From Ulota crispa (taxonomy: Eukaryota; Streptophyta; Bryopsida; Orthotrichales; Orthotrichaceae): a DNA stretch of 64,000 nucleotides. The stretch is taken from assembly GCA_963920765.1 (NCBI GenBank), contig OY987248.1, positions 10,884,539-10,948,538 of the forward strand. The letters run 5' to 3'. This document shows positions 1,931 to 62,584 of this stretch, in pieces (within the stretch, counting starts at the first letter, position 1; each line of letters starts with the position of its first letter). A program made the position numbers and the translations under genes. Below the pieces are notes generated by a model that was not told where the DNA came from, ran no database searches, and saw only the letters and a list, made by a program, of their open reading frames with translations.

Positions 1931-2854
1931 CCCCTAAAGGACCAATTGTCCGTTCAACGAACAAATGGGATTTTGGGCATGTACCTATGGTTAAACTACT
2001 TTGCATGGTTTTTTGAAACTTTTATTGAAGATGGGGAATTCAAAGATCTGCGTGGGCATCTAATTTCTATTCCAATTGATGCCAAGGAGCAAAAGTTATG
2101 CCCAAATAAGCACAAATGTGGGGACTCCAGGCAGCAAAAAAAAAAATCTTATTAAAACTTGAAAAAAAAAAAAAAAAATCTTCTCTTAGATTATATCTTT
2201 GTCTACATCTAAAGCTTTGATTCATTCCATTTTGACTAATTACAAGAAAGTTATGGACAATCTTGTTTTTTGGGCAATTCAAGCATCTTTTTGAAAAAAT
2301 AACTTATAAACTTCATTTTTGAAAGCAATTTTAACTTTTTTTCAAAAAAAATTGTTGAAGAGGGTGAAGTTTTCTTTGTAGAACAATCTCACCATTGGAA
2401 TTATTGCGTTTCAATTCCATTGCAGGGTAATTAGTAATTTAAGGTTTTTGTTCAATCTATTACCTTCTTCTGCCTAATGTTTTTTTTAAAGAATGAAAAT
2501 TAATTATTTTTTGTTACTTTATTTTTCCCAAGATTACCAACTCAACTTCCCACCATGCAAAAATAGAATTCCAAACTCTGTGGTGCAAAAATTTTAAGTT
2601 AAAAAAGTTCAAAGTTATAATCTAGTCATGCAAGGTGCAAAAAAAGTTGTTTTTTACATTTTAAATGCAAATATCTTCCAATTTGTATGGTCAAAGTTTG
2701 CGAGTTTTGTATGACATATTCTTATAGTAGTCTAGTATAAGATCCTACGGTTAGATATGCAAAAAGACTGATTTTCAAACTTTTTTACTCTTTGCCATGG
2801 AGGTGGCAGTTTTGAGTGTCTTTTGACAAAATAAAGGCCATGGTCCTTTAGGGG
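1931..2854 (+). mobile_element. TTAA-type MITE, family TA, copy 1
   Basis: Left end CCCCTAAAGGACCAATTG; right end TGGTCCTTTAGGGG followed by TTAA (2855-2858). The left flank is TTTA, so the target site is one base off the ideal. The interior (GGGATTTTGGGCATGTACC, GCAAAAGTTATGCCCAAATA and AAAGTTATGGACAATCTTG motifs) is shared with the copies at 5784, 20014, 36967 and 41062. Length 924 bp; no transposase. The piggyBac-like reading rests on TTAA plus CCC/GGG ends. Confidence 0.8.
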
Positions 2855-2904
2855 TTAATCAACCCAAATATCTAAAAATAAATAATTCCCAATTCATCTC
2901 AATT

Positions 2905-3290
2905 ACTGCACCTCGCACTAATAATGCTAACTTGTATCAATTCAAGAAACATATGAATTTGTTAGGGGCACTAATAAAATAGTTCATATCACTTTAGGTT
3001 AGTTTGGTATATTATGAGCTATGTTAGTGTAAATATTATTTCCAATAGTGCCACTTGAGTGGTCAAGGTCTTGAGGAGGTTTGCCAAAAAAAAAATTGAT
3101 TCAGAAAATGTTTGAAGGATGCTACATTAGAGAAGTTGTGCCACCAAGTTGGTACATGAGCTGTTGCAAAATCCTACTTTAAAAACTAGGGTTAGAGGCA
3201 TGCGGCAATCTGACACTAATTAGATAGATCCAAATTATTGTGAGAGGATCTTGCACTATTAAAAGTCTTGCACTAATTAAAACGACTTAG
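2905..3290. repeat. Dispersed repeat, family V, copy 1
   Basis: Shares ordered segments with about 63450-63835: GCTAACTTGTATCAATTCAA, GCCACTTGAGTGGTCAAGG, GTGCCACCAAGTTG and CTTGCACTATT. Same orientation as the second copy. Ends not defined; class unknown. Confidence 0.5.
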
Positions 3291-3930
3291 CGACTTATCT
3301 TCTAAATGTGCTAATAGTTTGAACATAACAATGTGACATTTTCATGTTCTCTCTTTTCCTGCACAGCCTTGATACTTAAAAAGCCTATTTTAAGCCAACT
3401 TGGGTTGATGGATGATGTGAAACTTCTGTTATGTTTACTCACAATTCAAAGCATTGAAATTGTTTGGCAATGTAGTTGTTTGATGCACCAAAGTAACAAA
3501 CTAGTCACATCAAACACTATCAGAATGTGCACTTTGGTTGATTTATGAAAATAAAAGTGTGTGAAAAAACTACTTAGTTACCTTTCAGTTCTAAAATGTC
3601 CTAGACACTGGAATTTGGGGACTAAAATAAAAGGATTAAAAAAAATGAAAAAATCCATACAAAACAAATAATCACATTTAAAATTCGTTTCAACATATCT
3701 TTGCTCCAAAACGATCAGCTCTTTGTTTGTAACCTACTCTGTAGTTCATAAGAAAAAACTGGTTAATGGGTTTCAAATTTTAATTTAACTATGAGAGTTG
3801 TTATTAATAGATTGCTGTGTTTTTTAGTATCGGTAAATACGACCAGAGAGATACAAATACCCTTCATATATGTACAATTCTAAAGTCACATGTTAATTCC
3901 CAAAATGTCCATTTATAGTGCAAGTTAGGG
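3291..3930. other. Unassigned AT-rich intergenic DNA
   Basis: I see no gene and no repeat that matches elsewhere in the window. The plus-strand frame at 3333-3548 has no recognisable domain. Confidence 0.35.
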
Positions 3931-4100
3931 GACTTCACAAAAAGGGTAGAAAAATACAAGTAATTACAAAGAGGGGGCATACTTTGAAGGTACTTTGATA
4001 AAGGGGAAATTGATGTATACCCTTGAATATTGTGATATTTGTTTAAGTGTTCTTGATTTTTCAGAAATTGCACAAATATCCATGACATCTCAAAGGAGCA
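3930..4100. repeat. Fragments of family J and family I MITEs
   Basis: About 3930-4003 resembles the family J end at 14042 (GTAATTACAAA next to GGGGGCAT). About 4004-4092 resembles the left arm of family I (GGGGAAATTGATGTATACCC, then TTTTTCAGAAATTGCACAAA). Neither has both ends, so these are remnants. Confidence 0.45.
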
Positions 4101-4127
4101 TTTCAAGATAGTTTTACAATTAATTTT

Positions 4128-4520
4128 GGGAATTACTTCCGCAACATCCTAAATTGCTAACAAGACACCCCCTATGGGCATGAAACTTGATAATTTAGTG
4201 CTATTTTTAATTTATTCAAGTAGTTCATCATTCATTCAATCACAACATTATCACATCCTTGAAAGAAAACAGGACATATACAAATGTTTGTTGAAATATT
4301 ATTGCACCAATACTATTTTTTGATAGATTTTGCTTCAAGCAACTCAAAAGTTCTATATTTTTAGTTTCAAATTTAAGCATGCATTTTTTTAGTATAGCCT
4401 TAGAATGATAAAGGTGAAAAATATCTTTTAATCAAAATAAAAAAATTAGCATTACAAAGCACACATCATACTCACAAGGGTGTCTTGTTAGCAATTTAGG
4501 ATGTTGCGGTAGTAATTCCC
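4128..4520. mobile_element. hAT-like MITE, family G, complete copy
   Basis: Terminal inverted repeats of about 44 bp start GGGAATTACTTCCGCAACAT and mirror the right end, which finishes GGTAGTAATTCCC. An exact 8-bp target duplication TTAATTTT lies at 4120-4127 and 4521-4528. Length 393 bp with no coding capacity. The 8-bp duplication favours hAT; the GGG terminus is not the classic CAGGG, so the superfamily is tentative. A partial inverted relative lies at 39102. Confidence 0.75.
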
Positions 4521-4600
4521 TTAATTTTTTTAGACCTCTTGCTCAATCTTTGTGTGCTCCAATGTTTCAAACAATTTTCTCTATGATATGTACACATTAA

Positions 4601-5245
4601 CCCCTCAAGGCCCAAGGGGACCAAAATTGTCCCTCCTTGTTTGTAATTTGGGATGCTTAATTTTTTTTCATGATTAATTATAATGGTTTTTTTTTTTTAA
4701 AGTTCTTGTGAAGTCTTGTTTTAATATCAAAAGTCCGATTTTGAAAATGACTAAATATGATTTTTCTTTTTAAATTTTTTTGCAAGGGTGTCCATTGCAA
4801 ATCTTCACTTTCTAGTGTTGAGAGCTCTTGGAATTGAGCCTGAAGTACACTAGAACTTGGAGAAACAATCACATTAGAAACTTAACTTAAAAAGTTGTAG
4901 AGAAGATTTTAAGAAGCCGTAAATTGATTAGGGTTACACATGTTGTACATTACATACTTGTATTTTTTTGGTACCTTCAATTTTAAATTTGAGATGTGAA
5001 AAGAGGATTGAAAGACTTCAAATCACTTTCACAATTTTAACACCCTCTTGATCAAATGTTATAATCTTTCAATCCATAAGTGATGTTGTTGTGTTTTCTT
5101 TTCCTATGTGATCTCTAACATATCTAGTTTGAATTTGTACGGTTACAATTTTTAAAAAATTAATGCAACTTATCAAAATGTTAACATTTTGTTCATCCAA
5201 GAACAGATTCTCAGATACTTGGGAAAGTGCATGGGCCTTGAGGGG
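4601..5245 (+). mobile_element. TTAA-type MITE, family TB, copy 3
   Basis: TTAA at 4597-4600 and 5246-5249 flank perfect ends CCCCTCAAGGCCC and GGGCCTTGAGGGG. Length 645 bp. The interior (GGTGTCCATTGCAAATCTTC, TCTAGTGTTGAGAGCTCTTGG) matches copies at 12692, 22869, 36222 and the partial copy at 55900. No transposase. Confidence 0.85.
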
Positions 5246-5249
5246 TTAA

Positions 5250-5783
5250 GACTTTCATTACAAGATCTAGAAACAATGACCTTGAAAAAACAAAACCACA
5301 GTGTCAAGAGTATCTATCCAATCTCTGAAAAAAATTCAGGGGTATTCATCAGATTTTCCCTTGAAATAAAGTCATGCCTCTAATGTTGCTCCTGCCATGT
5401 TATTTTTGCATGCATGCCAAAGAAAACTAGCCTCCCAAGTTGCAGAAGTTCCAGTGCAAAAGATCAAGGGGTGCTACGCAAAACATGCATGGCGACAAAT
5501 ATCTTGAGATTTTGTGCCCTTATTTGTGAATTACTTACGCTTTATGACAGATCTTTATTGCAAATGTTCATATTTATAGATTCTATTTTCCTGTATTGTG
5601 TACCACTGTCCCTGCATTTGTGACACGTGTGAATGTGACTACTTCATAAGATGGAGAAATGCTGAGACTTGAGAGGGGCGCCCCAGCTGTCATCCCAAAC
5701 TTGACTTTCATAAATAGCTCAAGCAAGGGGTACTAAGCATTGAAATTATTTAATACACAAATTGTGTTTCCAATTTTTATTTT
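5250..5783. other. Unassigned intergenic DNA
   Basis: No gene recognised. Two small frames (5189-5383 and 5414-5623, plus) have no domain and the first starts inside the TB element. A short family-I-like remnant (CTGAAAAAAATTCAGGGGTA) sits at about 5325-5375. Confidence 0.35.
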
Positions 5784-6717
5784 TAGGTTTGGACCATTGT
5801 CCGTACGGGGGACAAATGGGATTTTGAGATTTTGGGCAAGTATCTATGGCCTCAATTTTTGTCTTAATTTTTTAAATTTTTTTTTGAAAATAGAAAAACA
5901 CATTAACTTTTGAGGAATAGAATATTTATTCCAATTGATGCTAGGGAGCAAAAGTTATGCTCAAATAAGCACAAATTTGGGGACTAGGGGCAGCAAAAAA
6001 AAATCTTATAAAAACTTGAAAAAAAAATTAATTTGTTTTTCTTATAAACTACATCTTTGTCTACATTTGAAGCTTTGATTCATTCCATTTGGACTAGTTA
6101 CAAGAAAGTTATGGACAATCTTGTTTTTCAAGCAACTCAAGCATCTTCTTGAAAAAATAACTTATAAACTTCAGTTTTGAATGCAGGTTTAACATTTTTT
6201 CAAAAAAAAACTGTTGGAGAGGGTGAAGTTTGCTTTCTAAAACAATCTCACCACTAGGGTTATTGCGTTTCAATTCCATTGCAGGGTTATTAGTAATTTA
6301 AGTTTTTGTTCAATTTCATACCTTCTTCCACCTAATAGTTTTTTAAAGAATGAAAATTAAGTTTTTTTTTTTTTTTTTTGAATTTTTTCCCAAGATTCCC
6401 AACTCAACTTCCCAACATGCAAAAATAGAATTCCAAACTCTGTGGTGCAAAAAATTTAAGTTAAAAACCTTCAGAGTTAAAAAATCTAGTCAAGCAAGGT
6501 GCAAAAAATATTTTTTATACACTTTCAATGCAAATATCTTCCAATCTGTGCGGTCAAAGTTGTTGAGTTTTGTATGACACATTCTTATAGTAGTCTAGCA
6601 CAAGATCCTACAATCAAATATGCAAAATGCTTAATTTTCAAACTTTTTTACTCTTTGCCATCGAGGTGTCAGTTTTGAGTGTCATTTGACAAAATAAAGG
6701 CCATGGTCCTTTAGGAG
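5784..6717 (+). mobile_element. TTAA-type MITE, family TA, copy 2
   Basis: The right end TGGTCCTTTAGGAG is followed by TTAA (6718-6721). The left end is eroded (TAGGTTTGGACCATTGTCC), and the TTAA on that side is not recognisable. The interior aligns along its whole length with copies at 1931, 20014 and 36967, including the subterminal hairpin TGTCCGTACGGGGGACA. Confidence 0.75.
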
Positions 6718-6721
6718 TTAA

Positions 6722-7030: not shown

Positions 7031-7567
7031 GTTGTACACTACCGGTTAGTAATGATAGGTAGAACTTGGTTTGGCATTTCAAAATAGTTTGTATAACAAA
7101 AAATGTAAAGGTCATTTTAATCTCATATTTTTGGCATGTGATTCTTGTGCAATTCCAGTGGATCATACCAAATCTTGGTTACTAAAAATAAAAATCCTAT
7201 TTTTGGTAAGCTGTTTTGTATCAAGATTGCAATTTACAAGAAAGATGATTCAAACACATTGGTGATGAATTTTTGAGATTTGATTGCATGGATGTCTCCT
7301 ACACATCCATGCAATCAAATCTCAAAAATTCATCACCGATGTGTTTGAATCATCTTTCTTGTAAAACCGCAATCTCGACACAAAATAGCTTACCAAAAAT
7401 AGGATTTTTATTTTTAGTAACCAAGATTTGGTATGGTCCACTGGAAATGAATGAGAATCACATGCCAAGAATATGAGATTAAAATGACCTTTACATTTTT
7501 TGTTATACAAACTTCTTTGAAATGCCAAAACAAGTTCTACCTATCATTACTAAGTGGTATTGTACAA
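7031..7567. mobile_element. Long foldback element, family K, copy 1
   Basis: Two arms of about 260 bp are near-perfect reverse complements around a loop at about 7296-7302, for example TTGATTGCATGGATGT against ACATCCATGCAATCAA. Outer ends are GTTGTACACTACC and GGTATTGTACAA. The mirrored open frames at 7071 (plus) and 7322 (minus) exist only because of the palindrome. A transcript would fold into a long double strand. Confidence 0.8.
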
Positions 7568-10441: not shown

Positions 10442-10464
10442 TTAAACATTTATTTAACCCTTAA

Positions 10465-11625
10465 CCCCTAAAGGACCAAAGAGCCCAATTTGGGCTTTAC
10501 AAGAACTCAAGCAAGCTCTATTGACTTCATAATTTGGAAATGTTTCATGAATTTTTTAGGATGGATGCTACTCATCATAATCTACATGCGAAGCTTTATT
10601 TCATGTCATTCCGATAAGTAATGCAAAAGTTAGAAGGTTTTTCAATTTCAATGTCAAACCGAGTAGCAAAAAACATATTCTAATTTTTTATTTTTTTATT
10701 TATAGAATTGTATAGATTGATACCTACTCAAAAAAAAAAAAAAAAAAAAAAAAAAAATGAATTACCCAATTCCAAATAATGAGGTAAGAGTTCAAAGGAG
10801 TTTTATTTTGCGGGCAATGAAGGTAGGAAGAGGGTAGACTAAACATATAAAGTTATCTTTAACTCTTAATTTTGAAAATTTTCAAATGAAAATGAAAATT
10901 AAAGTTATTAATTGTCTGTTAGAGCATTCTCACCATTGGGATTAAGAATTTTCAAATTCTTCCAAAACTTATTAGCATATTAGTTATATCTTTCATTCAT
11001 CAAGACCTTTCACTTTACAATTTTTGTAAAAATGAATCCATTTTCTTTTTGGGTTTAGGGTTTTTATATATACTTTCAACCCATTTTCCAACATATTGCC
11101 AAAATTGCACAAGAAAGACAACATATGTGTCTTTCTCTAAAAAGTGTGAAAAACAAAACTTCACCTTCTAGAAGGACTAGAAAAGCCTACATTTTGAAGT
11201 TTAGGCACATTGATCTTGCAATTGGTGGGGATGTTCATTCTAAAATATTGGGATAATGTACTTGTGCAAGTCAACCAAAGGATCCTATGGTTGGATTTGT
11301 TAAAAAGTAAGTTTCAATGAAGATGTTGATCTTGCTTTGGGGATTGGTATTTTGAAGCAGTTTTGGGCCTCTAAACAAGAAAAAATTTTAGGGGTAAATG
11401 ACCAAGCTACCATAAAACATACTATGTACGCATGCTATATAACTGATATTTGCTACCAACAAAAAGTTTTAATTTTGGATCTTAACTACCTCACTAGAAC
11501 ATCATTGATCTATATTCTAACTTCTTTGTTGATCTCAAATGTAATAAATGTGTGGATGCACTCCAAACACAAGAAAAATATTCCATATTGTATTGGTTGC
11601 AAAGGGCTGCTTGGTCATTCAAGGG
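10465..11625 (+). mobile_element. TTAA-type MITE, long family TD member
   Basis: TTAA (10461-10464) then CCCCTAAAGGACCAAAGAGC; the right end GGTCATTCAAGGG is followed by TTAA (11626-11629). The right 230 bp (GCTACCAACAAAAAGTTTTA, GGTGTGGATGCACTCCAA-type words) is shared with 41988-42208 and 52740-52890. A run of about 28 A lies near 10728-10757. The 99-residue frame at 11337 lies inside the element and has no recognisable domain. Confidence 0.7.
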
Positions 11626-11629: not shown

Positions 11630-12522
11630 CCCGTAATCACCCAAACCCATTTTTTCTCAAAAAACATTTGAAATTGTCATTTTTAGTCATTTGATTTCAA
11701 GGACAATATTTTTTCCTTTTCTACAAATCTAACTATACGATCTTGCATCAGACTTATGCAAGGGGGCATGATGAAAGCTTCATGAGATTAGATCATATGG
11801 GTTGAGAGATGTTATCATTTGAAGTTGGTATAAAAATTCTTTTGACATCTGCATAAAATTTTCATGTCCCTTTGACCATGTGTGGTGAATATTTTTGCAC
11901 TACGGATGAGGGAGAGATTTGTATAACATGCACTAAATTGTGTTACACATTTTTTCACTAGCTTTCATGGCCAAAAATGACTTGAAACATTCCCTACATG
12001 GGCATGCATTGCAACATGTGCTTGAAATTCCACTACACTAAGATTTTTTGTAAACCAAATTTTTGAGGACTCATTTTGAAATATAGAAATCCAAGTAATA
12101 GATTGTAAGACTTACCTTTAATGATAGCACACAAAAAAAAAGTTGAAAAAAAACTATTACAATTCAAAAGCTTTTGTAGTTGTTTCATGTAACAATAAAC
12201 TTAAGTAGTACTCTATTGCTTAGGATATATTCCAATAAAGAGTTGTGTTTTCATTAGTTGCCCTTATGAGAAGTCAATGAAAAATTGTATGCCCATCCTT
12301 GCCCCTTGAACCAAAAAAACACTTATAACACCAATAACTTTTCAATCTTATATTTGTTTTCAAGATAAATTATATTTTTGCGTAGCCCTTGCAAAGCTCT
12401 ATTTAAGATTTTTTTTTGTTTGTTGAAGGAATTGATGAAAAATCCCAAGAAAACAAGCCTACCAAAAACCTATTATGTCCAAACCTATTATGTCCCTTGT
12501 AGGGACTACGGGCTTTTAGGGG
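11630..12522. mobile_element. TTAA-type MITE, family TC
   Basis: It begins CCCGTAATCACCC directly after the TTAA that closes the preceding element (11626-11629) and ends GGACTACGGGCTTTTAGGGG before TTAA (12523-12526). The terminal repeats match only partly. The interior is not clearly shared with other copies here. The two elements therefore sit end to end, sharing one TTAA. Confidence 0.55.
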
Positions 12523-12691
12523 TTAAAAATTACTGATTAATGATAATTCTAAAGTGTCATTTATGACACATCTTCACTAGTAATGAAATTCAAAGTACTC
12601 CTGGTTCTCAAGAGCCTAAAGTATGGAGACCAAGCCTTGCAAGTTTTGTTTCTTACCTAGTATGAAAAGTTCAATTTTTTCTACAACTTAA

Positions 12692-13334
12692 CCCCTAAAT
12701 GCCCAAGGCTCCAATTTGGGTGTTTGCAAACTTTGAAGTTGAATAAAACCTTATCAAGTCACTATTTTTGGTATTTTCTTTTGAACAGAAGTGTGTTTTG
12801 AAGTTTGTTTTCAACATCAAAAATCTGATTTTATAAATGAATATTAATGAATTTCAACTCAAGATTTTGTACAAGGGTGTCCAATGCAATCTTGAGTTTT
12901 CTAGTGTTGAAAGATCTTGAAAATGAGCCTCAGATACACTAGAGCTTGAAGAAAAATCCACATTAGAATTCCATTTAAAAAAAATACAAGAGTAGATTTT
13001 GTAAGCTATAAATTGACTAAAGTCAAGCATGTAACGACCTTAAACCTCATATTTTTTTGATGGCCAAAATTTTAAATTTGACATGTGAAACGAGGATTAG
13101 AAAACTTCAAGTTCACTTTTGCAATTTTAACACCCTCATGTTCAAACATTATAATCTTTCAAACTATAAGTGATATTGTTGTGTTTTCTTTTTCCATGTA
13201 ATCTCTAACATGTCAAGTTTAAATTTGTATGGTTACAATTGAAAAAAACTTGATGAGATTTATGAAAAGATTGGTTGATTTTTCACTTTCCTGAAAATGC
13301 CAAAAAGTTCAGAAAGGCCTTGGGCATTTAGGGG
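12692..13334 (+). mobile_element. TTAA-type MITE, family TB, copy 1
   Basis: TTAA at 12688-12691 and 13335-13338; ends CCCCTAAATGCCCAAGGC and GCCTTGGGCATTTAGGGG are a perfect inverted repeat. Length 643 bp. The interior matches 4601-5245 in the same orientation and 22869-23497 in the opposite one. Confidence 0.85.
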
Positions 13335-13338
13335 TTAA

Positions 13339-19182: not shown

Positions 19183-19291
19183 AGAAAAGTGACAAATGTC
19201 AAGCAACATGCGCCACTAAAAGTTAGCAAATGCAGCTTTAATCCTAACTGTCTAAAATAGATTCATATAAACCCTTGAAAATATTTCCTTA

Positions 19292-20009: not shown

Positions 20010-20013
20010 TTAA

Positions 20014-20911
20014 CCCCTAAAGGACCATTGTCCGTTTGGAGGACAAATGGGATTTTAGGCATGTATCTATGGCTAAACTACTTTGCATGATTTTTTGAAA
20101 CTTTTATTGAAAATGGAGAATTCAAAAATCTGGGTGGGTATCTAATTTTTATTCCAATTGATGCCAGGGAGCAAAAGTTATGCCCAAATAAGCACAAAAG
20201 TGTGGATTTCGGGCAGCAAAAAAAATTCTTATAAAAACTTGAAAAAAAAGAATTAATTTTTTTTCTCATAGATTATATCTTTGTCTACATTTGAAGCTTT
20301 GATTCATTCCATTTGGACTACTTATGAGAAAGTTATGGACAATCTTGTTTTTTGGGCAATTCAAGCATCTTTTTGAAAAAATAACTTATAAACTTCATTT
20401 TTGAATGCAATTTTAACATTTTTCAAAAAAAACTATTGGAGAGGGTGAAATTTTCTAGAACAATCTTGCTATTGGGATTATTGCATTTCAATTTATTGTA
20501 TGGTTATTAACAATTTAAGTTTTTGTTCAATTTCATACCTTCTTCCACCTAATGTTTTTTTTTTTTAAATGAAAAATAATTATTTTTTATTATTTTATTT
20601 TTCCCAAGATTACCAACTCAACTTCCTACCATGCAAAATTAGATTTCCAAACTTTGTGGAGCAAAAATTTTAAGTTAAAAAGTTCAAAGTCAAATAATCT
20701 AATTAGGCAAGGTGCAAAAAAAGTTGTTTTCAAATATCTTCCAATTTGTGTAGTCAAAGTTCTTGAGTTTTGTGTGACACATTCTTATAGTAGTACAAGA
20801 TCCTACGGTTAGATTTGTAAAAAGATTGATTTTCAAACTTTTTTACTCTTTGTCATAGAGGTGGTAGGTTTGAATGTCTTTTGACAAAATAAAGGCCATG
20901 GTCCTTAGGGG
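20014..20911 (+). mobile_element. TTAA-type MITE, family TA, copy 3
   Basis: TTAA at 20010-20013 and 20912-20915; ends CCCCTAAAGGACCATTG and CATGGTCCTTAGGGG (one base lost in the right end). The subterminal hairpin TGTCCGTTTGGAGGACA follows the left end. The interior matches copies 1, 2, 7 and 8. Length 898 bp. Confidence 0.85.
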
Positions 20912-21134
20912 TTAAATACGACATATGTTTAGAGCAATCGTTAGTTCTTTGAGACTTCTAATATCAATGTGATGAAGACAACTCCCTTGTTCAAAATTCT
21001 ACTTTAAAGTCTTTTTGTTTCTTTTTAAGAACCAACAAAGTAAGAACAAAAACTGCAAGAAGGTTCATTTGCACATCGTCTCACAATTATTATTATTTTT
21101 TGTCAAAATTCAATTGTCCAATACATAAATGATA

Positions 21135-22864: not shown

Positions 22865-22868
22865 TTAA

Positions 22869-23497
22869 CCCCTAAATGCCCAAGCCCTATGTGAGTTTCT
22901 TGGACTTTCCATGAAACTGGATAATCAATCAACCTTTTCACAAATTCCATCAAGTTTTTTTCAATTGTAACGGTACTAATTTAAGCTAAACATGTTGGAG
23001 ATTACATAGAAAAAGTAAACACAACATTATCACTTATAGTTTGAAAGATTATAATGTTTGAACATGAGGGTATTAAAATTGCAAAAGTGACAAAGTCTTC
23101 CAATTGTTGTTTCACATGTCAAATCCAAGAAGTTGGTCACCATAAAAATATGAGGTTTAAGGTCATTACATGTTTACAATTTTGAAAATTTACTCCTACA
23201 TTATTTTTAAATGGATTTCTAATGTGGATTTTTCTCCAAGCTCTAGTGTATTTGAGGCTCATTTTCAAGATCTTCCAACACTAAAAAACTCAAGATTGCA
23301 GTGGACACCCTTGTACAAAATCTCAAGTAGAAAAATCATCAACTTTTATTTTCAAAATCAGATTTTTGGTGTTGAATGTAGACTTCAAAACAAACTCATA
23401 ATGAAAAAAAAACACTGAAAATAATGATTTGATAAGGTTATATTCATCTTCAAAGTTTCCTTGCAACCCAAAATCTGATCGCTTGAGAATTTAAGGG
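22869..23497 (-). mobile_element. TTAA-type MITE, family TB, copy 2 (inverted)
   Basis: TTAA at 22865-22868 and 23498-23501; ends CCCCTAAATGCCCAAGCCC and GATCGCTTGAGAATTTAAGGG, the right one diverged. The interior is the reverse complement of 12692-13334. The plus-strand frame at 23170-23418 lies inside the element and has no domain. Confidence 0.8.
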
Positions 23498-23842
23498 TTA
23501 AGGATCAATGAAACTCTTCAAAAAAAAGAAATCAACTAGTGACAAGTTCTACACAAACCATTAAAATTTAATCTATGAAAATTTCAAGAATTCCTAAGAA
23601 TTGCAATAAAAGCACAAAAATAATCCTCAATTCCAACAACTACGAACATCAGGGTTTCGTTTCCTTGATTTGGATTTGCAATGCATTACCTACATGAATA
23701 TGCCATGGACCCAAACCCTAAATGTAAATTAGAGTACTCATTATCAAAAGAGTAGGAAATTCACTTGTGTCTTTATTGTTTATCCTCGGGAATACATAAA
23801 CAACGGTATTAAAAACAACCAATGTATGTAGTTTATACATAA

Positions 23843-24655
23843 CCCCTAAAGGACCAACTGTCCCGTATGGGAACAAGTGGTACTTTGGGCATGTATCTTT
23901 GGATAAGTTACTTTTTGTAATTTTTTAAAACTTTTATTGAAGTTAGGGAATTCAAAGATCTACATGGATATCTAATTTTTTCATTCCAACATTTGATAAA
24001 GAAGTTATGCATGAATTTTGAAATTTTGGGGAGAACCGCCCATCTAGGCAGCCCAAAAAACTTCTTTGAATTTTTTTAAAATAAAAATTGGAAATTGGTA
24101 ATTTAGATTTTTATATACTTGGGAAGCTTTGTATCATTCAATTTTAATCAACAAGATGAAAGGTATGAGGAGTTTTTGTTTGTGGGCAATTATGCATTCT
24201 ATACTCTAAAATAAAATTTGAAGTCCTTTATTTACTCAATTTTCAATATTTGGAAAAAAAAATTAAACCAAATGATGTAAATTTTTTATTACAACATGAC
24301 AACCTTTAGGATTTTCACTTTTCATTTCCATAATTAAATTCTTAACAATTTAGTGTTTTGACTCATTTTCTACTTCTTTTTAAGTTGAGCAATTTTTTTC
24401 ATGTAAAGGTGGTCAAAGGCTTTTGAAGTTTACATATTGCAAAAAAAAAGACTATTTTTTCTTACTTCACATGTAAATATCTCCCCTTTATTTGTCCAGA
24501 GTGACCTGATTTTTCCCCTAAGTACCCTTTCTAGTCTAAGGCAAGATCCTAAGGTTGGATTTCCAAAAAAAAAAAACATCTACCTTCTTACTCATGCACT
24601 AGAAGTGGCAATTTTTAGTGATTTTGGTAAAAAAAAGGGCTTGATCCTTTAGGGG
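23843..24655 (+). mobile_element. TTAA-type MITE, family TA/F, copy 4
   Basis: Left end CCCCTAAAGGACCAACTG after ATAA; right end TTGATCCTTTAGGGG before TTAA (24656-24659). The interior (GAAGCTTTGTATCATTCAA, GAAAGGTATGAGGAGTTTTT) is closest to the copies at 24783 and 61683. Length 813 bp; no transposase. Confidence 0.8.
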
Positions 24656-24782
24656 TTAATCCACATAGTCATGTCCATTTGGGCTAGATCCCCATTCTAT
24701 TGCCCTTCAAAGCCCATCACAATGTATAAACAATGACATGTTCATTAAAACAACAATCTTTCCTTTTCTCTTTTGTATTTAA

Positions 24783-26057
24783 CCCCTAAAGGACCAAATT
24801 GCGTTTTTTTTGGCAACATAACAATTTTAAGCACCTCACCACAAGTGGATTTTTTATTCCTTTTCTTTGAAATTTTCAGATATGATGTGCCCAAGGAGTA
24901 GCTTTAAGGCTCAACAATTTTTATAACATTTGACTATATGGTTCAAAAGTTATTCCATGATGAGTAGTTTTTTTTGTTTGTCTAGCAGCCTAGGCAGCTC
25001 GTTTTTAACCCCTAAATGTCGGCACAGACAAAAAACATCCATTGCCTCTGAAAAAAAAACTTTGTATCCCAAAAAAAGACCAATTTTGATTTGATTTTTT
25101 TTAGAAGTGATCATAAAAGCGTAGTGCATCATGGAAGGCAACAATTTACCTCTTGAGATACATTCATTTTATTTTGTAACCCAAATTGTGATACATGGTG
25201 TTAGCTCCCGAGTTGTCCTTCTTGCAAATTTCAGGAGGGCACCATGCAATGTTGACTTTTCCAACTTTTTGAAGCAATGCTACTGGTGCCCATGTGCAAA
25301 ATATTGTAGAATGCTACAGGCAAGGCAAGCCACGATGATCCATCCGTCCTTTAAGGGTTAAAAAACATTATTTACATTTTGAAAACCTTGAAATTGGTTC
25401 TTTAGATCTATGTAAATGTGGGAAGCTTTGAATCATTCCATTTTTATCAATGAGATGAAAGTTATGAGAAGTTTTTGTTTGCGGGTAGTTATGGATTCTT
25501 TGCACTAAAATAAACTTTAAAATCCATTATTTTACTCATTTTTCATTATTTTGGAAAAAAAATAGAAGGATGTGGATTGTTTATTGCAACGTTACAACCA
25601 TTGAGATTGACATTTTTCTTTTCCATAATTAAATTCTTAACAATTTGATGTTTTGAATCATTCTCTATTACTTTTTACTTACTTTTTTTTTCCCATGTGT
25701 TGCACAATTCCAAATGATTTGAATTTTTTCAAATATGTGACCAACTTGTATTAAAGAATGAATCCAAAGAGTTTCAACCATTTTAGAATTATTATCATGC
25801 AAATGTGACCTTGTGAAGTGCAACTCCCATATTTTTGCAAGGATAAAAAATGGCTTTTTGTCAATTCAAACTCAAATATCTAACAAACTACATGGTGGAA
25901 ATTTCTGATATTTTTCACATCTTCTAAAACTAGTGCACTAGAATATCTTATAGTTACATGTGTACAAAAATAATTTTTTTCTAAAATTTGACACTTGTAG
26001 TAGAAATGGCACTTTTGTAGCAATTTTGGTAAAAATGTAATCAAAAACCTTTAGAAG
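24783..26057 (+). mobile_element. TTAA-type MITE, family TA, copy 5, interrupted
   Basis: TTAA (24779-24782) then CCCCTAAAGGACCAAATTGC; decayed right end AAAACCTTTAGAAG before TTAA (26058-26061). The middle is split by another TTAA element at 25019-25357, and the right half (GGGAAGCTTTGAATCATTCC) resumes the homology to copy 4. Without the insert it is about 0.93 kb, the normal family length. Confidence 0.75.
25019..25357. mobile_element. Short TTAA-type MITE nested in copy 5
   Basis: TTAA at 25015-25018 and 25358-25361; ends CCCCTAAATGTCGG and CCGTCCTTTAAGGG. Length 339 bp. It lies inside another TTAA element. The interior is not shared with other copies in the window. Small frames on both strands have no domain. 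Confidence 0.7.
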
Positions 26058-26117
26058 TTAATCCCTTTACTCATCTATACTTGTTCAATTATTTGCCTTG
26101 TAAAAGAGCTTCCCTTA

Positions 26118-26529: not shown

Positions 26530-26852
26530 CTTGTCAAACTTCACTCGTTATAAGTTTACATCTATTTAAAGAAAGCCCTCAAAAAATTTGTTTCCCGCTA
26601 TGTTGATTGTGTCCATATAAAGAGTCATTCAATCAATCACCATTCAAAATTTAGAATATAAATCACCAAATTTAGGATGAATGATATTTTTAAGGGCCAT
26701 TGAATGACATGTTAGGATTGAGTGCCATGAGATTATTTTGAGAGGCACATAGCACTTATCATCCTAGTATGCTAAATGTTAGAATCTTAGAGCACAAGAG
26801 TGGAGATGCTCTAGCACAATCCTTCAAGGAGGCTTGTATTTGTGCTCTTTTT
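26530..26852. other. Spacer with a solo Harbinger-like end
   Basis: AAGAGTGGAGATGCTC at about 26796-26811 repeats the right terminus of the MITE at 26118. No partner end was found, so it is a remnant. The rest is unassigned. Confidence 0.45.
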
Positions 26853-35924: not shown

Positions 35925-36221
35925 CTTAGACAAACCAACTAATTTGAGGTACAAGAGTGTTGCATGTCAAATTTTGATGACACCATGTTTTTGAAAAATA
36001 TCTCACAAGGATTGTCTTCCTCTTTTTGAACTTCATACATGAATGTTCTTTATATAGAAATTAAAAACAAAGATGGGTAAGAGAGTGATCAAGATGACTC
36101 CACTTGAATTCATGGATACTTTGAGGATGATTGAATAAATGAAGGATCAATGAGATGAAGTCCTTCATCACCACCCAAAACAATTTCCCACCAATGTTGA
36201 GGAGATTTTGGTCTTCCTCAA

Positions 36222-36849
36222 CCCCTAAATGCAAGAGGCCTTTTTTGAGCTTCTAGGAATTTGCTCTAAACTGAATAAAAAGCCAACATTTTAATGAGTT
36301 GTATAAAAAAAAATGTATAATTGTACAAATTCAAATTAGATATGTTTAAGAGCATATCAGAAAAGAAAACACAACAATATCACTAATGGACTGAAAGATT
36401 ATAATGTTTGATCATGAGGGTGTTAAATTTGCAAAAATTATTTGAAGTTTTTCAATCCTCTTTGCACATGTTGAATCTAAAAAAATTGCCACCAAAAAAA
36501 TACAAGGTTAAAGAACAAAACATACATAACTCCAGTCACTTTACAACTTTTCAAAATCTCTTCTACATGTTTTTTAAATGAATTTATAGTGTAGATTTTT
36601 CTCCAAGATCTTGTGCATTTGAGGCTCATTTCCAAGAGCTCCCAACACTATGGAAAGTCAAGACCCTTACACAAAACTTTGAATAAAAAAATCATAATCA
36701 ATCTTTATCAAAATCAAAACTTCAATGCTAAAACTAGACTTTAAAAAGAATAGTTCAAAAATGTAAACTACTAAATAAAATCTTTGTTAAGTTTATTTAA
36801 CTTCAAAGTATTGTTGACACCAAAATTTGGTGCCTCAAGCAATTAGGGA
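36222..36849 (-). mobile_element. TTAA-type MITE, family TB, copy 4 (inverted)
   Basis: Left end CCCCTAAATGCAAGAGGCC after TCAA; decayed right end GCCTCAAGCAATTAGGGA before TTAA (36850-36853). The interior is the reverse complement of 4601-5245 (CATTTGAGGCTCATTTCCAA, CACTATGGAAAGTCAAG). Confidence 0.7.
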
Positions 36850-36966
36850 TTAATAAATGTCGGACATTTCTTTTTTTCAATTGCTCTTTCTACTGTATGT
36901 ATTGGATATTGCACATGTAAATGACATGATGGAAGCATTTCCTAAAGCGGAAAGAAAAGTAGTTAA

Positions 36967-37887
36967 CCCTAAAGGATTGTTGTCCCTATGGGGGACAAAT
37001 GGGATTTTGGGCAAGTACCTACGGTCTCAATTTTTGTCCTAATTTCTTGAAACATTTTTTGAAGCTAGAAACACACATTGGCTTTTGGGGAATATAGTAT
37101 TTATTCCAATTGATGCTAGGGAACAAAAGTTATGCCCAAATAAGCACAAATTTGGGGACTAGGGGCAGCAAAAAAAAATCTTATAAAAACTTGAAAAAAA
37201 ATATTAATTTTCTTTCTTATAGACTATATCTTTGTTTACATTTGAAGCTTTGATTCATTCCATTTGGACTAGTTACAAGAAAGTTATGGACAATCTTGTT
37301 TTTCAAGCAACTCAAGCATCTTCTTGAAAAAATAACTTATAAACTTCAGTTTTGAATGCAGGTTTAGCATTTTTTCAAAAGAAATTGTTGAAGAGGGTGA
37401 AGTTTGCTTTCTAGAACAATCTCACCATTGGGATTATTGCGTTTCAATTCCATCGCAGGGTTATTAGCAATTTAAGTTTTTGTTCAATTTCATACCTTCT
37501 TCTGCCTAATGTTTTTTTTAAAGAATGAAAATTCATTATTTTTTGTTATTTTATTTTTCCCAAGATTACCAACTCAACTTCCCACCATGCAAAAATAAAA
37601 TTCCAAACTCTGTGGTGCAAAAGTTCTAAGTTAAAAATGTTCAAAGTTAAAAAATCTAGTTAAGCAAGGTGCAAAAAAAGTAGTTTTTTACATTTTAAAT
37701 GCAAATATCTTTCAATTTGTGCGGTCAAAGTTGTTGAGTTTTGTATAATACATTCTTATAGTAATTTAGCACAAGATCCTACAGTCATGTATACAAAATG
37801 CCCAATTTTCAAACTTTTCACTCTTTGCCATGGAGGTAACAGTTTTAAGTGTCTTTTGACAAAATAAAGGCCACGATCCTTTAGGGG
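36967..37887 (+). mobile_element. TTAA-type MITE, family TA, copy 7
   Basis: TTAA at 36963-36966 and 37888-37891; ends CCCTAAAGGATTGTTG and CACGATCCTTTAGGGG. Subterminal hairpin TTGTCCCTATGGGGGACAA. The interior is closest to 5784-6717. Length 921 bp. Confidence 0.85.
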
Positions 37888-37891
37888 TTAA

Positions 37892-39441: not shown

Positions 39442-39637
39442 CATGAGACCTAACATCCTGTTTGTGAGTCTTCTCACAATTTGGGTTACTTAAAAATATG
39501 ATTACATTTAATGAGATTGTTTTCTGCCTTCCATGATCAACTTTTGTAAAATAATACGATAAAAAGTGCCTATTTCTCATCCTATAGCGCATCTTTTCAT
39601 GCGTACAACAAAATCCGTCCCCTTTGGCATTTAGGGG
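39441..39637. mobile_element. Possible right-hand fragment of a TTAA-type element
   Basis: The segment ends TTTGGCATTTAGGGG at 39637, a right terminus of the TTAA superfamily, but is followed by TTTA and has no matching left end. Confidence 0.35.
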
Positions 39638-39715
39638 TTTAACATGAAAACACCTTTGTGTGAGGCCCTTACCCTATACCAAAAAAATCCAAAAGTAATT
39701 GACTACTCCCTCTGT

Positions 39716-41057: not shown

Positions 41058-41061
41058 TTAA

Positions 41062-41983
41062 CCCCTAAATCTTTGAGTGTCCCCTCGGGGAAGAAATGAG
41101 ATTTTGGGCAGGTACCTACGGCCTCAATTTTTGTCTTGATTTTTTGAAACTTTTTTGGAAGATAGGAAATACATTAGCTATTAGGGAACATAAATTTTAT
41201 TCCAATCTATGCCCGGGAGCAAAAGTTATGCCCATATAAGCAAAATTTTATGGAGATTGGGCAGCAAACAAAATTTCACAAAAACTTGATTTTATTTATT
41301 TATTTATTATTTTCTCATAGGTTATAGTTTCATTTACATCTGTAGCTTTGATTCATTTCATTTGGACTACTTATGAGAAAGTTATGGACAATCTTGTTTT
41401 TTGGGCACTTCAAGCATCATCTTGAAAAAATAACCTATAAAGTTCATTTTTGAATGCGATTTTAACATTTTTTCAAATAAAATTGTTGGAGGGGGTGAAG
41501 TTTGCTTTCTAGAACAATCTCACCATTGGGATTATAGTGTTTCAATTCCATTGCAAGGTTATTAACAATTTAAGTTTTTGTACAATCTCATACCTTCTTC
41601 CACCTAATGTTTTTTTTAAGAATGAAAATTAAGTATTTTTTATTTTGATTTTTTTGCAAAGATTCTCAACTCAATTCTCCACCATAGAAAAATAAACCTT
41701 GAAACTCTATGGTGCAAAAAGTTTAAGTTGAAAAAGTTCAAAGTCAATTAATCTAGTCATGCAAGGTGCAAAAAAATTACTTTTACACTTCAACTGCAAA
41801 TGTCTTGCAATTTGTATAGTAAAAATTTTTGAATTTTTATTTCCACATTCTTATGCTAGTCTAGTACAAGATCCTATGGTTAGATATGCAAAAGGACCAA
41901 TTGTCAAACTTTCTTGCTTTTTGCCATAGAAGTGACAGTTTTGAGTGTCTTTTGACAAAATAAAGGCCTCATGGATTTAGGGC
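41062..41983 (+). mobile_element. TTAA-type MITE, family TA, copy 8
   Basis: TTAA (41058-41061) then CCCCTAAATCTTTGAG; decayed right end CTCATGGATTTAGGGC before TTAA (41984-41987). The interior (GGGCAGGTACCTACGGCC, GCAAAAGTTATGCCCATATA) aligns with the other TA copies. Length 922 bp. Confidence 0.8.
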
Positions 41984-41987
41984 TTAA

Positions 41988-43225: not shown

Positions 43226-43425
43226 NNNNNNNNNNNNNNNNNNNNNNNNNNNNNNNNNNNNNNNNNNNNNNNNNNNNNNNNNNNNNNNNNNNNNNNNNNN
43301 NNNNNNNNNNNNNNNNNNNNNNNNNNNNNNNNNNNNNNNNNNNNNNNNNNNNNNNNNNNNNNNNNNNNNNNNNNNNNNNNNNNNNNNNNNNNNNNNNNNN
43401 NNNNNNNNNNNNNNNNNNNNNNNNN
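43226..43425. other. Assembly gap of 200 N
   Basis: Exactly 200 N, a round number that suggests a placeholder of unknown true size. Confidence 0.99.
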
Positions 43426-45195: not shown

Positions 45196-45545
45196 TGACC
45201 TGTCTACTAGGATGGAACCGTGTTAAATTTGTATTTGAGAAATAGAAAGGGAGGAAAATATATTAGAAAAAGAGGTACTCCCATTTAGCTTAGCAAAGGT
45301 AAATGTGGTGATTCCATTTAGCATAAGTAGATGAGTTGATTTGTATTTTTTAGTAGAAACTTCAATTTTCAAAAAGATTGGTACTAAATTAAATTGAAAA
45401 TAAATAAACTAAATTTAATATTTCTAATATATTTTTTCTAATAACTTGAGCAAATTGTGATGATAATTTGAATTTCATTTAGTAAAAAGAAACATATGCC
45501 ATTCATAAAAAGAGTATAAAGAAATTCAATGTTTTTTTAAATTAA

Positions 45546-46452
45546 CCCCTAAAGAACCAGATCCCCTTTTTTAGAAACATAGCGATTTTTAGCAGGTACC
45601 TATAATTGGAGTTTTTCACATTTTAGGTTAAAATTTTAATCGAATGTGGGGACAAGGTTTATCTATGCACTAAATTTCATGACATTTGGAATTATGACTA
45701 AAAAGTTATGGCCTAATCTGTTGTTTTTTACGTTTGGCGGGCAACCTGGGCAAATCTTTAATAATCACTTTTTTCAAAAACATTAAATTTAAATGGCCTT
45801 AGGAGATTTATGTGAATGTAGGAAACTTTTAATCATATCATTTGCATCAACAAGATGAAAGTTGTGAGGATTTTTTGTTTGCTGGCATTTATGGATTCTC
45901 CACTCCAAAATAAACTTTGAAGTTCTTTATTTTACTCAATTTTCAACATTTTGGAAAAAAAACAAAACCAAAGGATGGAGATTGTTTATTACAACATTAC
46001 AATCATTGGAATTGGCATTTTTCATTTCCATAACTATATTCTTGACAATTTTGTGTTTTTGATCATTCTCTACTTCTTTTTACTTACTAATTTTTTTCCA
46101 TATGTTATACAACTCCAAATGATTTGAAACTTTTTTGACAAGTACTTTATTGAGGTGGAGTAAGGGATTTAGAGAAGCAACACCCACATGGCCTTTTTTC
46201 CTTAGGAATTTCACCTTTTGAAGGGTAGCTGCCCGGTTTTTCACAAGACATTTTTGAATATTCAAACCATTCTAACTTCCAATCCACATGGTGGAAAGCT
46301 TTGAATTTTTTTCCACATCTTCTATAACCATTCTTTTACAAGATCCTATGGTCATATATGCATAAAAATGTTTATGTTTTCAAATTTGGTCAATGCTCCA
46401 AAAATGGCAGTTTTGAAGAGTTTTGGTGAAAACTTTGCTTGGTCCTTTAGGG
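45546..46452 (+). mobile_element. TTAA-type MITE, sub-family E, copy 1
   Basis: TTAA (45542-45545) then CCCCTAAAGAACCAG; right end TTGGTCCTTTAGGG followed by TAAA, two bases short of the expected GTTAA. Almost identical to 60576-61482, with about 15-20 differences by eye over 907 bp. The 61-residue minus-strand frame (46080-46265) is identical in both copies but looks like chance. Confidence 0.85.
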
Positions 46453-52563: not shown

Positions 52564-52896
52564 CTCCTGAGCGCTCGGAGTTGTTTTAGGGTTTAGGAAA
52601 AAATGGGGAGTTTAATGGCCATTAGAGTATGGAAAATTACATTCAAAAAAAGTAACCGTAGGATTTGAAAAAGGACTACCTTCTTTGCTGATGGGGACTA
52701 GCAACAACTATTTTCATCGTACAAATTAAGAGAAAAAGCAAGTTTTGGGATCTTAAATAGCTCACTAGAGCCACGTTGACCTATATTGCAACTACTTTGT
52801 TAAACTCAAATGTAGTAAAGGTGTGGATCCATTCCAAATACAAGAAAAATACCTTGTATCGTGTTGGTCACAAAGGCACTTCCAACTGTTTGGGGG
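52564..52896 (+). mobile_element. TTAA-type MITE, family TD, internally deleted
   Basis: TTAA (52560-52563) then CTCCTGAGCGCTCGGAG; right end CCAACTGTTTGGGGG before TTAC. The left half matches 58977-59140 (GTGGCC-like GGCCATTAGAG, CCGTAGGATTTGAAAAAG); the right half matches the right end of 10465-11625 (GTGTGGATCCATTCCAAATA). Length 333 bp. Confidence 0.65.
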
Positions 52897-55899: not shown

Positions 55900-56282
55900 A
55901 ACATTAGAAATTTAATTTAACAAGTTGTAGAGCAGATTTTAAGAAGTTGTAAATTGATTAGGGTTATACATGTTGTACTTTACATATTCATATTTTTTTG
56001 GCATTCTCAATTTTAAATTTGAGATGTGAAAAGAGGATTGAAAAACTTCAAATCACTTTCATAGTTTTAATACCCTCTTGATCAAATGTTATAATCTTTC
56101 AATCCATAAGTGATATTGTTGTGTTTTCTTTTCCTATGTGATCTTTAACATATCTAATTTGAATTTGTATGGTTACAATTTTTTTAATTAATAAAACTTA
56201 TCAAAATGTTGCCATTCTATTCATCCAAGAGTAGATTATGAGATACTCAAGAACGTCCGTGGGCGTCAAGGGCGTCGAGGGG
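55900..56282 (+). mobile_element. TTAA-type MITE, family TB, truncated copy 5
   Basis: Matches the right half of 4601-5245 (TTGATTAGGGTTA, GATGTGAAAAGAGGATTGAA) and ends GGGCGTCGAGGGG before TTAA (56283-56286). The left half is absent. GGGCGTCAAGGGCGTCGAGG shows a small duplication within the terminus. Confidence 0.75.
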
Positions 56283-56286
56283 TTAA

Positions 56287-58972: not shown

Positions 58973-58976
58973 TTAA

Positions 58977-59203
58977 CCCCTGAGCGCCCAGAGTTATTTT
59001 AAGATTAAGCAGAAAATAGGGGGTTTAATGGCCACCATAGCTTGGAAAATCACATCCAAAAAAAGTGACCGTAGGATTTGAAAAAGAACTAACTTCTTTG
59101 CTGATGGGGACTAGCCTCAATTGTTTTCATTGTACCAATTGGGAGAAAAAATGAGATAAAGTTGTGGGTCCCAACGACATCCTATTGCTATGGCGCTTAA
59201 GGG
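58977..59203 (+). mobile_element. Short TTAA-type MITE, family TD
   Basis: TTAA at 58973-58976 and 59204-59207; ends CCCCTGAGCGCCCAGAG and CTATGGCGCTTAAGGG. Length 227 bp, the shortest apparently complete TTAA element here. The left part is shared with 52564-52740. Confidence 0.8.
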
Positions 59204-59357
59204 TTAATAAATGAAGTGCGTAAAAAATGAAGAAGGGATGTAGGGATACACTCCACTTCTCATGGTACAAAAAAGAGATGATATATGCCATGAGTAGCAT
59301 TACAATGATGAGACACTTTTTAGAACATTTATTAATGCTAGTTTGCAATGATCACCT

Positions 59358-59427: not shown

Positions 59428-59433
<6 letters not shown>

Positions 59434-60300: not shown

Positions 60301-60301
60301 A

Positions 60302-60332
60302 TATATGTATTATATATATATATATATATATA
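60302..60332. repeat. TA-rich microsatellite
   Basis: ATATATGTATTATATATATA and onward, bordering the tandem repeat above. Confidence 0.85.
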
Positions 60333-60575
60333 TTCAAACCTATGAAAATCTAGATTCTAAATTAATTTAGAACCAAGTTACTAATATTAGTATCTTTTGT
60401 GCTATATTGATAAAAATTTAGACAATAGAAATCACGTGATCCATTAGTTTATTACTACATTTGAAAGGACCAAAACTTGCCAAGCTTGTAAGCTCCGGCT
60501 CATAATTAGGGATATCACCATGCAAGGAAAGAGAGCCATTAACTTCCACGCAAAGACAAAACCCACGTTTCTTAA

Positions 60576-61482
60576 GCCCTAGAGGACCATACCCCTTTTT
60601 AAGAAACATAGCGATTTTTAGCAGGTACCTGTGATTGGAGTTTTTCATATTTTAGGTTAAAATTTAATTGAATGTGGGGACAAGGTTTATCTATGCACTA
60701 AATTTCATGACATTTGGAATTATGACTAAAAAGTTATGGCCTAATCTGTTGTTTTTTACGTTTGGCGGGCAACTTGGGCAAATCTTTAATAATCACTTTT
60801 TTCAAAAACATTAAATTTAAATGGCCTTAGGAGATTTATGTGAATGTAGGAAACTTTTAATCATATCATTTGCATCAACAAGATGAAAGTTGTGAGGATT
60901 TTTTGTTTGCTGGCATTTATGGACTCTCCACTCCAAAATAAACTTTGAAGTTCTTTATTTTACTCAATTTTCAACATTTTGGAAAAAAAACAAAACCAAA
61001 GGATGGAGATTGTTTATTACAACATTACAATCATTGGAATTGGCATTTTTCATTTCCATAACTATATTCTTGACAATTTTGTGTTTTTGATCATTCTCTA
61101 CTTCTTTTTACTTACTAATTTTTTTCCATATATTATACAACTCCAAATGATTTGAAACTTTTTTGACAAGTACTTTATTGAGGTGGAGTAAGGGATTTAG
61201 AGAAGCAACACCCACATGGCCTTTTTTCCTTAGGAATTTCACCTTTTGAAGGGTAGCTGCCCGGTTTTTCACAAGACATTTTTGAATATTCAAACCATTC
61301 TAACTTCCAATCCACATGGTGGAAAGCTTTGAATTTTTTTCCACATCTTCTATAACCATTCTTTTACAAGATCCTATGGTCATATATGCATAAAAATGTT
61401 TATGTTTTCAAATTTGGTCGATGCTCCAAAAATGGCAGTTTTGAAGAGTTTTTGGTGAAAACCGTGCTTGGTTCTTTAGGGG
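60576..61482 (+). mobile_element. TTAA-type MITE, sub-family E, copy 2
   Basis: TTAA at 60572-60575 and 61483-61486; ends GCCCTAGAGGACCAT and TTGGTTCTTTAGGGG. The body is nearly identical to 45546-46452, while the flanking DNA is unrelated, so the two are separate insertions rather than one duplicated segment. Confidence 0.9.
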
Positions 61483-61682
61483 TTAAATAATAAATTTAAC
61501 TTTTTATTGGTGCAATCCGATAGTTAACATATATTTCTAGAACGAGGTAGATAGAATCCGTATCAATTGCAAAGAACGTTTGAGACGATTTGGAAACGCT
61601 GTCATTAACAGGAGTATATTATAATGTAGGACATCACGGTGTAAATGAAAAAAACTGTGTCATTCTAAATTAAATGAATTAA

Positions 61683-62584
61683 CCCCTCAAGGACCAAAGT
61701 CCCTCTGGGACAAATGGGATTTTGGGCATGTACCTATGGCTAATTTACTTTTTGTGATTTTCTGAAACTTTTATTGAAGGTGGGGAATTCAAAAATCTAC
61801 ATGGGCATCTAATTTTTTCTTCATTCCGACATTTGATGAAGAAGTTATGCATGAATATATGAAAAATGGTGTTCAAGGGCAGCCAAATGTTTCTTTAAAA
61901 AATTCATTTTTTTCAAATAAAAATTTAAAATAGGTTCTTTAGACTTCTATAGACGTGGGGAGCTTTGAATCATTCAATTTTGATAAATGATATGAAAGTT
62001 ATGAGGAATTTTTGTTTGCGGGCAGTTCTAGATTCTCCACTCTAAAATAAACTTTGAAGTCCTTTATTTTACTCAATTTTCAATATTTTGGAAAAATAAC
62101 AAAACCAAAAAATGTAGATTGTTTATGACAACATTATAACCATTGGAAGTTGCACTTTTCATTTTTATAATTAAATTCTTAACAATTTAGTGTTTTGACT
62201 CATTCTCTACTTCTTTTTACTTACTATTTTTTCCCATGTGTTGTATAGTTCCAGTTGATTTGAAAATTCTCCCACACATACCTACCTTGTTCTCCTACAT
62301 GGGAAAAATAAACCTCAATTTTGTGTAGAGTAATTTTTTTGAGCTAAGAGTGGTGAAAGTCTTTTGAAATTTCTGGGCAGTAGCAAAAAAACTCATTTCC
62401 GCAATTCAAATGTAAATATCTCACTCATTTTTGTATAGATTGAGCTGAATTTCTTACCACGTGTACCTCTTGTAGTATATTGTAAGATCTTATGATTGAA
62501 TTCTTGTAATTTTTTTTTTCTTACCATTGTACTTGCTTCCCCAAAAGTGGCAGTTTTCAGAAAAAATGGCTTGGTCTTTAGGGG
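61683..62584 (+). mobile_element. TTAA-type MITE, sub-family F
   Basis: TTAA at 61679-61682 and 62585-62588; ends CCCCTCAAGGACCAAAG and TGGTCTTTAGGGG. Subterminal hairpin GTCCCTCTGGGAC. The interior is closest to 23843-24655 (GCATGAAT, GGGGAGCTTTGAATCATTCA). Length 902 bp. Confidence 0.85.

Follow-up and report, generated by a model that had tools for sequence, protein, structure and literature searches.

Which transposase superfamily fills a plant-like genome with short elements that begin with CCC and sit between TTAA sequences? The question is raised by a stretch of 64,000 nucleotides (the window, here meaning this whole stretch) on contig C7 of a 275-Mb assembly of 157 contigs. A first-pass annotation had described in it about 21 elements or fragments resembling miniature inverted-repeat transposable elements (MITEs), most of them flanked by TTAA and together covering about a quarter of the window, in DNA that looked plant-like, and had inferred from the target and the ends that they belong to the piggyBac superfamily. 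It had further proposed to look for longer elements that share these ends and encode a DDD or DDE transposase, and to check that TTAA is a target rather than part of the element. We consider it nearly certain that these are piggyBac-superfamily MITEs of a land-plant nuclear genome, and that longer parents with the same terminal inverted repeats (TIRs) encode a transposase of the type with three catalytic aspartates (DDD).

Abundance of the MITEs in the window and the genome

The motif TTAACCCCT is present at 21 sites in the window against 0.79 expected, a count reached in none of 100 shuffles, and TTAACCCCTAAAGG with up to two mismatches is found at 28 sites against 0.68 expected. Many sites of these two types can be paired into elements of ~630-950 bp that have TTAA outside and short (~10-18 bp) inverted matching ends. 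At least two families are distinguishable: the first, of ~810-950 bp, is typified by CCCCTAAAGGACCA, with one copy (L001) that at 1,444 bp is longer than usual for the family, and the second, of ~630-645 bp, by CCCCTAAATGCCCAAG and its relatives. Matches to 18 elements, of which 11 come from the window itself, so that the coverage is partly self-match, account for 13,454 of the 64,000 bases (21.0%) in 19 merged intervals. The elements have the usual attributes of MITEs in being short, bounded by TIRs, numerous and non-coding, the last judged from the open reading frames (ORFs) of the window, six of which reach 110 amino acids from stop to stop, and from the listed genome matches to the piggyBac transposase domain (PF13843), none of which lies in the window.

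The flanks were inspected in a curated set of 22 elements with both ends, 11 from the window and 11 from elsewhere in the genome. Exact TTAA stands on the right side in all 22 and on both sides in 20; the query used to retrieve this set itself included TTAA, a choice that favours copies with TTAA intact. The first-pass observation is confirmed by these measurements. The CCC at the start of the TIR is maintained, apart from cases of one substituted base such as CTC in L087 and GCC at 60576. Window copies are mostly 12-31% divergent from one another, and the only pair of intervals exceeding 90% identity is 45547-46452 and 60576-61482, at 98%. The pattern fits what long-lasting activity plus some recent copying would leave, and the 98% pair could alternatively stem from gene conversion or duplication.

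Across the genome the exact 14-mer TTAACCCCTAAAGG has 15,411 copies (7,719 and 7,692 on the two strands), against one for the reversed control; the first 100 of these places are all on contig C1. The PF13843 domain has at least 120 matches (best 1.3e-73), a lower bound obtained with 116 of 528 candidates scored, a few matches being two pieces of one copy.

Full-length parents and their transposase

Seven wide stretches (9.0-10.0 kb) around transposase loci were examined. Five of them are not a random sample; L041 and L042 were picked from MITE BLAST matches, and L086-L088 for their MITE-like right ends. MITE sequence matches the DNA adjoining the PF13843 domain at several loci, and four of the seven stretches contain complete elements of 5.1-8.4 kb with a piggyBac transposase domain between their ends (Table 1). 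The homology of the MITEs with these four parents extends up to ~200-250 bp from the left end and up to ~440-565 bp from the right end; in L042 ~5.5 kb separate the left end from the domain, and 1.6 kb lie between the domain and the right end. As for the remaining stretches, L041 has a MITE-type right end and no left end within the stretch, L039 has a MITE-type right end with a left end that is degenerate at best, and L040 shows no MITE-type end in its 9-kb stretch. L039 also has a long tandem repeat (5361-6048), reading (YIHT)n / (VCMY)n, that separates its transposase from its right end.

A 363-amino acid stretch of L039 recovers in the PDB, at E<=1, only piggyBac (6x67, 1.8e-17) and piggyBat (9c0f, 1.2e-11), and its catalytic aspartates line up with theirs. 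When 33 plant copies are aligned with these two references (35 rows), the three positions of the DDD triad are occupied by aspartate in 32, 27 and 30 rows. Asparagine makes up 13 of the 16 departures (rows L009-L038 and L086-L088), which would fit a G-to-A change from a methylated cytosine on the opposite strand. In the corresponding tree, where 12 of the 33 plant copies carry no end assignment, a single clade (support 100/100) takes eight of the nine transposases labelled with a MITE-type right end. The four same-ended elements are what the first-pass annotation had called for, and together with this clade they support its assignment to piggyBac. All 28 pairs within the clade differ by 0.14-0.28 at second and 0.30-0.65 at third codon positions, with 25 of them at 0.18-0.28 and 0.53-0.65, respectively. 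As third positions differ more than second ones, the copies diverged mainly as constrained (selected) proteins.

An upstream coding stretch is conserved in L039, L041, L042, L087 and L088, ~0.5-4 kb before the domain stretch, and was not found in the shorter L086. Because this stretch stands apart from the domain, the transposase gene is likely to be split and intron-bearing. The L039 ORF shows a Cys-rich tail, which no Pfam model matched. A separate observation concerns L040, whose minus strand (3811-4980) carries a piggyBac-like ORF of 389 amino acids with a stop-free domain and the DDD triad retained. No TTAA-CCC ends were found in its 9-kb stretch and a caleosin gene is located ~2.5 kb away; this ORF is a candidate for a domesticated piggyBac gene.

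To survey right ends more widely, 1.25 kb (1.34 kb in one case) beginning 1.4 kb downstream was scanned at 40 domain matches. GGGTTAA in the right-end orientation is found at 33 sites in 28 of the 40 loci, 1.4-2.65 kb past the domain, and in the wrong orientation at 7 sites in 7 loci. Given the latter, some of the screened right ends are surely unrelated nearby MITEs. The ends vary (CCCCTAAAGGACC, CCCCTAAGCGCC, CCCTTTAACGACC, CCCTTCACCGCC and others), in agreement, as expected, with many piggyBac lineages; the 227-bp window element at 58973..59207 resembles the CCCCTAAGCGCC right ends of one such other lineage. The CCCCTAAATGCCCAAG end of the 630-645 bp family recurs, exactly or with 1-2 changes, downstream of the piggyBac copies L055, L047 and L071, at 2.27-2.47 kb past the domain. 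Two of these three (tree rows L012 and L022) form a separate clade beside the first parents, with weak support (86/55), and a piggyBac parentage of this family might be taken as a lead.

Taken together, the elements combine a TTAA duplication, a TIR starting with CCC, a PF13843 transposase inside the element and the DDD triad, features that define membership of piggyBac. The layout usual in insects, which is not a defining one (a single ORF of 500-725 amino acids in an element of 2-3.5 kb), is not seen here. By analogy with the established mechanism of piggyBac, the parent transposase would bind the ends, cut exactly there and insert the element by cut-and-paste into TTAA with duplication of the target. 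Derivatives with internal deletions, retaining ~150-250 bp at the left and ~350-565 bp at the right end, would then have been mobilised in trans and amplified into the thousands.

The target site and alternative explanations

The parent L087 is inserted in a dispersed repeat, and this allows filled and unoccupied sites to be compared. Its left flank has 13 other matches, seven of which were fetched. In five of these seven unoccupied paralogs (L091-L095) the alignment runs without a gap through the junction, with one 4-bp unit in place of the TTAA-element-TTAA of the filled site. The 22 curated elements show no direct repeats beyond TTAA of 2, 3 or 5-8 bp, and a 4-bp one in a single case. As unoccupied sites read through with one 4-bp unit and no consistent repeat extends beyond TTAA, the TTAA is the duplicated target and lies outside the element proper. 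Within the window, the joined flanks of the nested element at 25005-25361 align across its site to 45567-45961 and 60700-60989 at 70-72% identity, with small gaps beside the site. The flanks of two window MITEs were searched for empty sites, and the matches obtained do not reach the junction and are uninformative either way.

Several observations weigh against the picture drawn so far. The 4-bp units of L091-L095 are TTGA, TCAA (three times) and TAGA; as none of the five is TTAA, the pre-insertion target of L087 is one that we infer. The right flanks of the L087 paralogs align weakly when taken alone (scores 31-44), the alignments of L091-L095 extending 35-196 bases into them, and of the other two places L090 shows a gap of 8 bp at the junction and L089 an alignment that stops there. 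No parent among the four matches the middle of the first-family MITEs (e.g. ~200-570 of 61683-62584), so that the direct progenitor was not found among these. The 630-645 bp family shares with its presumed parents L055, L047 and L071 the TIR only, with no internal homology. One transposase labelled with a MITE-type right end, L031, falls outside the main clade; this end is perhaps that of a neighbouring MITE. The transposase domains of all eight MITE-type clade members have in-frame stops, and the uninterrupted part of L039 is a C-terminal piece only (the 363 amino acids mentioned above). Given these stops, the sequences do not demonstrate any present transposase activity in the clade; stop-free related pieces are found elsewhere in the genome.

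Other superfamilies also use TTAA, and target and length alone do not separate Kolobok or Sola3 from piggyBac. The MITEs might on this basis derive from one of these, with the piggyBac elements merely bearing look-alike ends. We regard this as very unlikely, as four elements coding for piggyBac have both ends in alignment with MITE end regions and MITE-type ends follow one transposase clade in eight of nine labelled rows, although no search aimed at Kolobok or Sola3 transposases was made in this genome. Slightly less credible still is the proposal that the piggyBac sequences are animal or fungal contamination of a plant that has none. The assembly does contain a contig, C97 (G000:C97, locus L044), in which bacterial-looking coding DNA is joined to plastid rbcL in one reading frame, and which is probably an assembly chimera. 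Against contamination, piggyBac domains are distributed over the chromosome-scale contigs C1-C11, the same contigs that carry the WRKY and dirigent genes; one of these, C2, also contains pieces of plastid DNA at 96-99% identity. Likewise, the caleosin gene of L040 lies near a piggyBac ORF, and MITE ends are recorded on C1 as well as on C7, which carries the window. The weakest alternative is that these are PIF/Harbinger or Tc1/mariner MITEs, from mainstream sources of plant MITEs, whose TAA or TA duplications happen to sit in TTAA, which is hardly conceivable given the exact TTAA on both sides of 20 of the 22 curated elements, the difference of one 4-bp unit, and not the 3-bp TWA duplication of PIF/Harbinger, at five of the seven unoccupied sites, and the piggyBac transposase encoded by the parents.

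With regard to the host, a plastid contig (C157) carries rbcL, tRNA-Arg(CCG) and accD in the order rbcL-trnR(CCG)-accD. WRKY matches number 39 and fall at ~22 places, several of them representing two parts of a single gene, and dirigent matches number 14; a bacterial-type EF-Tu gene is located on C8, with no EF-Tu match on the plastid contig. These markers, together with the nuclear plastid DNA and the caleosin gene, bear out the earlier description of the DNA as plant-like, and we take them to indicate a land plant that is probably non-flowering and perhaps a bryophyte.

The elements in their setting and in comparison with known systems

The piggyBac elements of the window and the four parents are listed in Table 1. 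The window additionally contains long fold-back repeats at 7032-7567, 15744-16521, 18324-19183, 26851-27730 and 29207-30129, with arms of 137-419 bp that are 90-94% complementary; none overlaps the intervals of the piggyBac MITEs. An assembly gap of 200 N occupies 43226-43425.

Table 1. Coordinates of the elements in the window and of the complete parent elements.
Feature	Position	Strand	Length	Remarks
Complete parent	L042:34-8280		8,247 bp	TTAA both sides, MITE-type TIRs
Complete parent	rc(L086):4620-9766		5,147 bp	TTAA both sides, MITE-type TIRs
Complete parent	L087:1687-9701		8,015 bp	TTAA both sides, MITE-type TIRs
Complete parent	rc(L088):1366-9791		8,426 bp	TTAA both sides, MITE-type TIRs
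MITE, CCCCTAAAGGACCA family	1927..2858	.	924 bp	Flanks TTTA/TTAA; 86% identity to 20014-20911
MITE	4597..5249	.	645 bp	TIR CCCCTCAAGGCCCA; TTAA both sides; interior homologous to 12692-13334
MITE, 924-bp family	5791..6721	.		Left end degenerate, TTAA right; 83% to 1931-2854
MITE	10461..11398	.	~930 bp	TTAA left, TAAA right; 86% to L008 element, full length
Lone end with TTAA, no partner	12513..12526	-		TTAACCCCTAAAGG-type site scan
MITE	12688..13338	.	643 bp	TIR CCCCTAAATGCCCAAG; TTAA both sides
MITE	20010..20915	.	898 bp	TTAA both sides
MITE, second family	22865..23501	.	629 bp	TTAA both sides
MITE	23839..24659	.	813 bp	Flanks ATAA/TTAA
MITE hosting nested TTAA-flanked element (25005-25361, 349 bp)	24779..26061	.		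Joined flanks align elsewhere; outer ends from site scan
MITE, second family	36218..36853	.	~627 bp	Flanks TCAA/TTAA
MITE, first family	36967..37891	.	921 bp	End sites and homology
Fragment	39474..39641	.		64 bp resembling 25009-25357, plus end with TAAA
MITE	41058..41987	.	922 bp	TTAA both sides
MITE	45542..46452	.	906 bp	98% to 60576-61482
Fragment	52566..52737	.		84% to 58977-59203
Fragment, second family	55901..56286	.		Right end with TTAA
Element	58973..59207	.	227 bp	Ends CCCCTGAGCGCCCA / CCCTTAAGCGCCAT; TTAA both sides
MITE	60572..61486	.	907 bp	TTAA both sides
MITE	61679..62588	.	902 bp	TTAA both sides; ends alignable with the two ends of each of the four full-length piggyBac elements

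The TIR of the piggyBac of Trichoplusia ni (IFP2, PDB 6x67) is short and starts with CCC, as in the plant elements, and the two further share a PF13843-type transposase, an aligned DDD triad and the TTAA duplication. They differ in that IFP2 measures 2,472 bp (according to a passage of PMC10140906), whereas the four plant parents measure 5.1-8.4 kb and reside in a plant, and an intron is likely from the separate upstream coding stretch of five plant copies. The piggyBacs of beetles and bees mostly have TTAA duplications and short TIRs, and in beetles the end motif seen most often is CCCT; intact ones span 2.07-3.5 kb, those of beetles having a single ORF, in contrast to the longer plant parents (sections of PMC12732532 and PMC10140906). 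The haptophyte Tisochrysis lutea also provides a case of piggyBac in a photosynthetic eukaryote, one that is not a green plant and in whose genome it makes up 0.26% (a passage of PMC5963040). The fern Ceratopteris is a land plant as well, and a table of repeat categories for its assembly has a PiggyBac line of 1,230 pieces amounting to 0.00%, that part of the paper giving no transposase or element structure (PMC6890710). One paper says in general terms that piggyBac has been identified in plants (PMC10140906), and a review from 2024 mentions it alongside other superfamilies in a sentence about plants (PMC10794571), the relevant passages of both showing no elements. The moth piggyBac has been used for scar-free excision in rice (a passage of PMC5505980). 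Our searches of open-access text turned up no account of a land plant that has piggyBac elements together with their MITEs.

PiggyBac has rarely been described from plants, being best known from insects and other animals. While the superfamily and its mechanism are familiar, the novelty here is in the host, the scale, the number of lineages and the length and probable split-gene structure of the parents. With its numerous deep transposase lineages and varied CCC ends, piggyBac is probably a long-term and diversified resident of this land-plant nuclear genome, at least one lineage having yielded MITEs by the thousands from unusual 8-kb split-gene parents. If this is true, one non-flowering lineage at least would contradict the common view that land plants are essentially devoid of piggyBac. 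With thousands of MITEs and recognisable parents in one plant genome, questions can be addressed on the route by which piggyBac came into land plants, on inheritance versus transfer, and on the means by which plants silence it, and these elements could also serve as a source of plant-derived ends and transposases for scar-free excision.

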